DNA from: Thermoproteota archaeon
Lineage (GTDB): Archaea > Korarchaeota > Korarchaeia > B14-G2
Direction: 5' to 3'
NCBI GenBank assembly: GCA_003661385.1
Contig: QMWA01000004.1
Location: forward strand, 1-28,968
Length of the DNA: 28,968 bases
Shown: piece after piece, positions 26,146 through 27,528 of the stretch
How the letters are laid out: every line of letters starts with the position of its first letter
Numbering within the stretch: position 1 is the first letter of the stretch
Position numbers and translations under genes: made by a program
The notes under the pieces: generated by a model
What the model was told of the DNA's origin: nothing
Databases searched by the model: none
What the model saw: only the letters and a program-made list of their open reading frames with translations

Positions 26146-26433
26146 ATGGCGTACCTACTGGGTGTAGGTAGAGTCTGTGTTAAGACAGCTGGCAGAGAGG
26201 CTGGAAGAAAGTGCGTAATAGTAAAGGTCATAGACAAGAACTACAGGCTAGTAACCGGTCCACCGGAGCTAACAGGGGTTAGAAGAAGGAAATGCAACAT
26301 AAAGCACCTAGAACCCCTCCCCTATGTCCTAGACATAGGGGAGGATGCAAGCGATGAGGAGGTAGCCAAGAAGCTACTTGAAGCAAACATACTGTCGGAG
26401 CAAGATCTAGTTAAGAAGCAGGTGAAGCCCTAG
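26146..26433 (+). CDS. rpl14e: Large ribosomal subunit protein eL14
   Basis: Archaeal eL14, 95 aa, with an N-terminal KOW-type fold (GVGRVCVKTAGREAGRKCVIVKVIDKNYRLVTGP) and the block VRRRKCNIKHLEPLP. ATG 26146 follows GAGGTG. Its stop overlaps the GTG of cbf5 by one base, so the two are tightly coupled. Confidence 0.95.
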   Translation: MAYLLGVGRVCVKTAGREAGRKCVIVKVIDKNYRLVTGPPELTGVRRRKCNIKHLEPLPYVLDIGEDASDEEVAKKLLEANILSEQDLVKKQVKP

Positions 26434-27420
26434 TGCCCCAGGAGCTTGTTACAGTAAGTGAGTGTGAAACAGACCCGAGCTACGGCACTCCCCCGCACAA
26501 GCGGACGCCTGAAATGCTATTGAAGACAGGAGTGATCCCACTAGATAAGCCGAGAGGCCCGACGTCAGGTGATGTGGTAGACTGGATTAAGGCCATCCTC
26601 GGCTTCAGGATCAAGGTAGGCCACTGCGGGACCCTAGCTGCCCAGTAGGGGCGGGGGATATCCGCCTGCCAGTGGCCTGCTTCCTATAGTCCTGGGGCAT
26701 GCTACAAAGATAAGCAAGGTGCTCCTAACAGTACCAAAAGCCTACATATGCTTGATGAAGCTTCATAGAGATGCATCTGACAGCCTCTTAGCCAGTACCC
26801 TAAGCCAGTTTACAGGAGAGATCTTCCAGAGACCTCCACTTAAATCTGCTGTTAAGCGGAGGCTTAGAATAAGAAGAGTATATGCGATAGAGCTCCTGGA
26901 GAGAGAGGGGAGATATGTCCTCCTCAAGGTGCTATGTGAAGCAGGGACCTACATCAGGAAGCTGGTACACGACATCGGAGAAGCCATGGGAACCGGGGCG
27001 CACATGGTAGAGCTCAGAAGAACCCAGGTCGGCCCCTTAACTGAGGAGAAGGGGCTCACAACCTTGCACTACCTGGAGTACGCTGTGAAGAAGTGGAGAG
27101 AGAGCAGCGACGACACACACTTACGGAGAGCTGTAATACCCATGGAGGAAGCCTTATCCCACTTACCTAGGATGTACGTGAAGGACACAGCTGTCAACGC
27201 AGTATGCTATGGAGCTGATCTAGGGGTGCCAGGGATATGCAAGCTCACTAAGGGGATTAAGAGAGGAGATCTTGTCACAATAATGACATTAAAGGGAGAA
27301 GCCGTTGCACTAGCTGTCGCCTCTCTCTCTACAGAGGAAATCCTAGAGAGGGAATATGGCAGGGCAGCTAAGACAATTAGAGTTCTAATGGATAGGGATA
27401 TATACCCCAGGGCATGGTGA
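26433..27420 (+). CDS. cbf5: tRNA/rRNA pseudouridine synthase Cbf5, interrupted by a 22-nt intron
   Basis: Catalytic subunit of H/ACA ribonucleoproteins. The coding sequence is two exons, 26433-26637 and 26660-27420, giving 321 aa. Exon 1 ends in VGHCGTL plus the G of the next codon; exon 2 begins AT CCG CCT, so splicing produces GTLDPPASGLLPIVLGHATK. This is the family's catalytic loop, with D69 as catalytic aspartate. The N-terminus has GVIPLDKPRGPTSGDVVDW. KVLCEAGTYIRKLVHDIGEAMGTGAHMVELRRTQVGP follows, then a C-terminal PUA domain from about LPRMYVKDTAVNAVCYGADLGVPGI. Unspliced, translation stops at TAG 26646-26648 after 71 aa. The start is GTG 26433, overlapping the eL14 stop. A pseudogene reading is unlikely because the insertion folds as a BHB and its removal restores the protein exactly. 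Confidence 0.93.
26638..26659 (+). other. Intron of cbf5 with canonical bulge-helix-bulge
   Basis: The 22-nt intron runs from C 26638 to T 26659. The central helix pairs CCCT (26632-26635) with GGGG (26654-26657). Bulges are AGC (26636-26638) and ATA (26658-26660), each cut after its second base. The inner helix is TGCCC (26639-26643) with GGGCG (26649-26653), loop AGTAG. The outer helix begins A-T, G-C, G-C (26629-26631 with 26661-26663). Cbf5 introns spliced by the tRNA endonuclease are established in crenarchaea. Confidence 0.93.
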
Positions 27421-27430
27421 GCTAATAGGA

Positions 27431-27528
27431 GCCGGGGTGCCCTAGCCAGGAAGGGGGCGGGCCTGGAGTCCAGTGAAAGCCAGCCCGTGGCTCTCGTGGC
27501 CGCGTGGGTTCGAATCCCACCCCCGGCG
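27431..27528 (+). tRNA. tRNA-Ser(GGA), type II, with an anticodon-loop intron
   Basis: The acceptor stem GCCGGGG (27431-27437) pairs with CCCCGGC (27521-27527), discriminator G 27528, as in serine tRNAs. The T stem GTGGG/CCCAC with loop TTCGAAT and a long variable arm (27488-27503) fit a type II tRNA. The anticodon stem CGGGC/GCCCG (27458-27462, 27483-27487) closes a 20-nt loop. Removing 13 nt gives CTGGAGA with anticodon GGA. It begins 10 nt after cbf5, has no visible TATA box, and is probably cut out of the superoperon transcript. No CCA is encoded. Confidence 0.9.
27469..27481 (+). other. Putative 13-nt intron of tRNA-Ser at position 37/38
   Basis: The insert (TCCAGTGAAAGCC) sits after G37 and before A38, the standard archaeal site. 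The outer helix is the anticodon stem. The central helix is poor (only C-G and T-A of four pairs), and CTGG/CCAG can form a competing hairpin, so the BHB is degenerate. The exact ends rest mainly on restoring CTGGAGA. Confidence 0.6.

Follow-up and report, generated by a model that had tools for sequence, protein, structure and literature searches.

A predicted bulge-helix-bulge intron in the catalytic aspartate codon of a korarchaeal cbf5 gene: distribution, splicing endonuclease and an excess of in-frame stops

Introduction

The gene for the pseudouridine synthase Cbf5 is read as two frames in a korarchaeal assembly (GCA_003661385.1, contig QMWA01000004.1). Is this a broken gene or a gene with an intron, and what could such an intron do? 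The whole stretch of 28,968 nucleotides that was analyzed is referred to as the window. The cbf5 intron is the only well-established intron of archaeal coding sequences, described since 2002 in the Desulfurococcales and Sulfolobales (Watanabe 2002; Yoshinari 2006; Yokobori 2009, PMC2738675). Published cbf5 introns are 16-44 nt long (22 nt in S. solfataricus) and interrupt the catalytic Asp codon after its first base; Korarchaeum was listed with none (Yokobori et al. 2009, PMC2738675). The kind of intron and its place are already known. The additions made here are the host lineage, a wider distribution, a fused endonuclease and an excess of stop codons.

Results and Discussion

Split reading frame of cbf5

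The upstream frame of cbf5 begins with a GTG start at 26433, encodes 71 aa and ends at 26648 on the plus strand. A different frame, open over 26662-27420, encodes the remainder of Cbf5. Excision of 26638-26659 (CTGCCCAGTAGGGGCGGGGGAT) joins G26637 to AT26660-61 and forms GAT, the codon of Asp69, in the context GHCGTLDPPASGLLP. The protein across the splice junction reads GHCGTL-D-PPASGLLP. Spliced Cbf5 could be aligned over nearly its full length with the solved archaeal Cbf5 2aus (E 1.5e-103), with no gap at the junction, and the sequence together with this alignment places the insert directly behind the first base of the catalytic Asp codon. The parts of the gene are as follows.

26433-26637, plus strand: cbf5 exon 1, 68 codons and the first base of the Asp codon (ORF list; 2aus alignment of the spliced protein)
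26638-26659, plus strand: 22-nt bulge-helix-bulge (BHB) intron of cbf5 (sequence; position and pairing conserved in 80 genes)
26646-26648, plus strand: in-frame TAG within the intron, terminating the unspliced frame (ORF list; stop statistics of 80 introns)
26660-27420, plus strand: cbf5 exon 2, from the last two bases of the Asp codon to the stop (translation; alignment)

A preliminary description, made from the sequence alone, had proposed a 22-nt intron splitting the catalytic Asp codon and was correct base for base. It had also named an intact second cbf5 as evidence that would speak against the intron. A TruB_N search of the genome, which is 91% complete, gave no second cbf5, and both match rows were pieces of the window gene. 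The best named match of the protein was from a thaumarchaeal MAG (48% identity), the gene of which lacks the intron. The small size and the position had been singled out in the same description as points of interest. Given the published length range and the same place in the codon, both are therefore usual.

Bulge-helix-bulge structure

The region around the cbf5 intron forms a 3-4-3 bulge-helix-bulge with four of four central pairs, an inner helix of 5 bp and an outer helix of 3 bp, as the preliminary description had claimed. Both predicted cuts fall after the second base of a bulge, as in substrates of the splicing endonuclease EndA, and coincide with the frame-restoring ends of the intron. 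The elements, all on the plus strand, are listed below.

26618-26626 and 26670-26678, plus strand: perfect 9-bp exon-exon helix, AGGCCACTG with CAGTGGCCT, enclosing the whole BHB (sequence; folds)
26629-26631 and 26661-26663, plus strand: outer helix, 3 bp (sequence)
26632-26635 and 26654-26657, plus strand: central helix, 4 bp, CCCU/GGGG (sequence; compensatory changes in relatives)
26636-26638, plus strand: 5' bulge AG/C, predicted cut after 26637 (sequence)
26639-26643 and 26649-26653, plus strand: inner helix, 5 bp, with a 5-nt loop AGUAG (sequence; fold)
26658-26660, plus strand: 3' bulge AT/A, predicted cut after 26659 (sequence)

The fold of the region had a z-score of -2.7 against shuffled sequences. 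For the window sequence alone, a competing fold in which 26626-26629 are paired with 26662-26665 puts the BHB with the 9-bp arm at an energy higher than the predicted minimum, by 3.8 kcal/mol at 37°C and by 0.9 kcal/mol at 80°C. Positions matching the 9-bp exon helix were paired nearly as often in intronless genes, and no claim of conservation is therefore made for this helix; relatives have a shorter helix nearby.

The window intron resembles the cbf5 introns of the Desulfurococcales and Sulfolobales in gene, codon place, BHB cut sites and approximate length. It differs from published cbf5 introns, mostly of an unconventional BHB type, in having three outer pairs next to the bulges. Outer pairs were mostly formed in the Korarchaeota, with a run of 3 in the window and of 0 to 8 in relatives. 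The first outer pairs were broken in most genes of the family codes f28 and f34, which are probably Desulfurococcales relatives, judging from the pattern of Yokobori, and this agrees with the "unconventional" BHB reported for that order.

Distribution of the intron

The distribution was studied in 29 genomes of the Korarchaeota, the phylum of the window, where absence of the intron was judged from DNA or from an uninterrupted match. The intron was found in 10 of them (G000, G006, G007, G009, G020, G021, G025, G026, G027 and G028) with lengths of 15-33 nt; the gene of G025 runs off its contig. Intronless genes were found in 15 genomes of genus g2 and 3 of genus g5, and G003 gave no cbf5 match. 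Genus g2, from the same class as the window genome, includes a single-contig genome of 1.6 Mb that lacks the intron, in keeping with the published listing for Korarchaeum. A 16S search of the window assembly gave no match. The preliminary description had stated that cbf5 introns are known in crenarchaea. This is indeed published, but the organism of the window falls outside the crenarchaeal orders described. Its phylum differs from that of the published hosts, and the only member scored earlier, Korarchaeum cryptofilum, is without the intron.

A wider census covered 250 genomes of Thermoproteota, and representatives of most families, uninterrupted genes included, were read as DNA. In all, 80 genes with an intron and 57 without were read. 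The introns were spread over 39 family codes of the Korarchaeota and Thermoproteota and measured 13-39 nt, all of them in the same codon and with the same cut position. The shortest (13 nt; L170, L173 and L185) fall below the published minimum of 16. No intron was found in the cbf5 genes that were read from sampled archaea of other phyla. All four central pairs were formed in 76 of the 80 introns, and the central helix occurred in several compensatory versions (CCCU/GGGG, CCCU/AGGG, CUCU/AGAG, CCUU/AAGG and CCUU/GAGG). Its exon strand was CCCU, CUCU or CCUU in 80/80 genes with an intron compared to 23/57 without (Fisher p 3e-17, kinship ignored), and the choice of synonymous Thr-Leu codons therefore follows the pairing.

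In a tree of Cbf5 the window protein grouped with its own class (support 95). On this tree, the base of which is weakly resolved, intron state had to change 15 times or more, compared to 44 times with shuffled labels. Judged by its position and pairing, the intron would most simply have been inherited from a common ancestor of the Korarchaeota and Thermoproteota and lost repeatedly. The known range now extends beyond the two described orders to many families of Thermoproteota and to a deep neighbouring phylum, which would move the origin back and turn a gain in the ancestor of Desulfurococcales and Sulfolobales into an ancient intron that was often lost. Wherever the intron occurs, annotation will wrongly present cbf5 as a broken gene or as a pair of genes.

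The window element is almost certainly an archaeal cbf5 pre-mRNA intron that folds into a BHB, is cut by EndA and is joined by a ligase, restoring Asp69 and Cbf5. A sequencing or assembly error, or a recent frameshift, could imitate an intron. The gene is read as two frames, and rtcB of the same assembly also has a frame break, of a single base. However, the 22-base insert carries an exact BHB at a codon that holds a BHB insert in 79 other sampled genes; a simple sequence error was rejected on this conservation of insert and pairing, and an error of any kind is very improbable. Programmed frameshifting, or bypassing of the 22 bases by the ribosome, would yield Cbf5 without splicing. Ribosomes that bypass short coding gaps are known from phage T4. 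The first cbf5 introns were taken by other authors as translational frameshifts, but splicing of the intron was shown in Aeropyrum and Sulfolobus (both reported in PMC2738675). Furthermore, the introns have lengths of 13 to 39 in all three frames, and it is the recognition motif of EndA that is conserved, so that translation across the insert is hardly credible. As to the history of the spliced intron, independent gains at the same codon in the Korarchaeota and Thermoproteota would replace common descent. The at least 15 changes of state on the tree and the presence of intronless genera inside both groups speak for such gains, and the codon context GGGACCCUAG may favour a BHB. Against them, the cut position is identical in all 80 genes, bases of the bulges and helices are shared, and an intron is more easily lost than gained at a single precise site; repeated gain is considered unlikely relative to inheritance.

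Splicing machinery

If the window intron is removed as proposed, the nascent cbf5 message would fold into the BHB around the catalytic Asp codon, EndA would cut after the second base of each bulge, and an RNA ligase, expected to be RtcB, would join the exons to give GAT and an intact Cbf5. Cutting and joining in the cell are here inferred from sequence. The genes for both enzymes were searched for in the window genome.

Both PF01974 domains of EndA were found in one ORF of 367 aa (L008 1477-2580, minus strand), as a fused two-domain enzyme, and every searched korarchaeal genome with a match had one such two-domain gene. Separate genes for catalytic and structural subunits, as in the crenarchaeal (alpha-beta)2 system, were not found in the window genome. 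Korarchaeota have been assigned an alpha4 or alpha2 EndA, and Cren- and Thaumarchaeota a two-subunit enzyme (review, PMC4090602). The published hosts of cbf5 introns have an EndA of two subunits, in contrast to the one fused chain of the window genome. Separate subunits are therefore not needed for a genome to carry the intron.

The catalytic half of the window's EndA was closest in the PDB to crenarchaeal-type enzymes (3p1z and 3ajv), with the Tyr/His/Lys residues kept. In the sequence alignment its loop IGIAKPK corresponds to DVEKPR of 3p1z, with the Lys as the equivalent of Lys44. We take 3p1z to be the A. pernix chain, in agreement with the aligned Lys being numbered as residue 44. Lys44 of A. 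pernix EndA is required for broad specificity, and moving the Lys44 loop into a narrow alpha-prime-2 enzyme broadens its specificity (PMC6379350). Like the window's EndA, the euryarchaeal alpha-prime-2 endonucleases are single chains in which the first domain is degenerate and the second is catalytic; they differ in that the catalytic domain of the window's enzyme is nearest to the crenarchaeal type and has the Lys44 loop, which the A. fulgidus enzyme lacks (PMC6379350). With one chain and the IGIAKPK loop, the lineage therefore joins the fused architecture with a crenarchaeal loop. The loop Lys was present in all aligned korarchaeal EndAs, with or without a cbf5 intron, and missing in two EndAs sampled outside the phylum (L060 and L062). 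These alignments point to the lysine loop as a possible shared trait of the endonucleases of intron-bearing lineages. The same IGIAKPK loop was observed in EndA L061 of family f8, in which no cbf5 intron was seen in the sample; the loop is therefore wider than the intron.

The expected ligase gene, rtcB, was present in the window genome (L186, on the short contig C181) with its one-base frame break. The break had first looked like a second mRNA intron, but no intron-sized insert was seen there, and an assembly error is the probable cause. The assembly may therefore contain errors.

Two tRNA genes with introns were identified in the window by ARAGORN with introns allowed.

27431-27528, plus strand: tRNA-Ser(GGA) with a 13-nt intron, just downstream of cbf5
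2850-2939: tRNA-Pro(CGG) with a 22-nt intron

ARAGORN at default settings and Rfam at the gathering threshold gave no match anywhere in the window. Archaeal tRNA BHB introns have the same recognition motif as the cbf5 intron and presumably use the same EndA and ligase. In contrast to them, the cbf5 intron resides in a protein-coding message, so that the unspliced product and its translation matter.

In-frame stops and the unspliced message

A ribosome on the unspliced cbf5 message of the window would halt inside the intron after 71 codons, and the claim of the preliminary description that this message gives only a 71-aa peptide agrees with the TAG in the intron. The result could be generalised. 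Read on from exon 1, the frame reached a stop in all 25 introns with a length divisible by three (3n), while the other two frames had 7 and 5. Pair-preserving shuffles gave an expectation of 8.9, with a maximum of 17 in 2000. The 25 introns span 16 families, and with the most lenient intron taken from each family the product of the chances was 10^-7.3. Stops were also frequent in introns of other lengths (29 of 55, compared to 10 expected). The lengths themselves were evenly distributed over the three mod-3 classes. A stop-free 3n intron would show itself as an uninterrupted gene that is longer by 5 or more residues. No such hidden intron was present among 125 uninterrupted genes, where the largest net excess was one residue, and these genes speak against 3n introns having been noticed only through their stops.

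With this excess of stops, the unspliced message is therefore blocked from read-through. This suggests selection for aborted translation over the production of a Cbf5 whose catalytic loop is lengthened by additional residues. No earlier report of the excess in cbf5 introns was found in a limited literature search. Translatable introns are depleted in Paramecium and other eukaryotes (reviewed in PMC11334263). Eukaryotic introns and the archaeal cbf5 introns are alike in that stop-free 3n introns are avoided; in contrast to Paramecium, however, the cbf5 BHB introns retain stops rather than shun 3n lengths. To our knowledge, nonsense-mediated decay is not known for archaea.

The preliminary description had further stated that splicing gates enzyme production, which holds only insofar as the unspliced message cannot make Cbf5. 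The stop excess by itself does not show regulation. A regulated off-switch, in which retention of the intron tunes the level of Cbf5, would be a supplement to splicing and not an alternative to it. A negative regulatory role was proposed earlier by the discoverers of the intron, Watanabe and colleagues. It would fit an unspliced message that stops in or soon after the intron, the large excess of in-frame stops and the maintenance of the intron across 39 family groups. However, the intron has been lost in many lineages with no visible replacement, and quality control explains the stop excess equally well. Regulation of this kind is regarded as improbable, and so are the possible triggers, such as EndA being occupied by pre-tRNA or Cbf5 being in excess.

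A more comprehensive proposal is possible but put forward tentatively. In it, the cbf5 intron is ancient and pre-dates the split of Korarchaeota and Thermoproteota, and selection has maintained it in all lineages as a block to translation, so that an unspliced message with an intron of any length has to stop in the intron or shortly behind it. If true, selection against introns that can be translated would be seen here for the first time in archaea, and the intron might be an ancient switch coupling pseudouridine synthase output to tRNA-splicing capacity. The stop excess makes the old question of the role of the intron testable.

One further insert was observed in a Cbf5 gene of the Thermoproteota (L188 of G061, reverse strand). 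It is an in-frame, intein-like insert of several hundred residues at AGTYIRKL, which begins with CVPENTELI and ends with VISNC. The same gene also carries a BHB intron.
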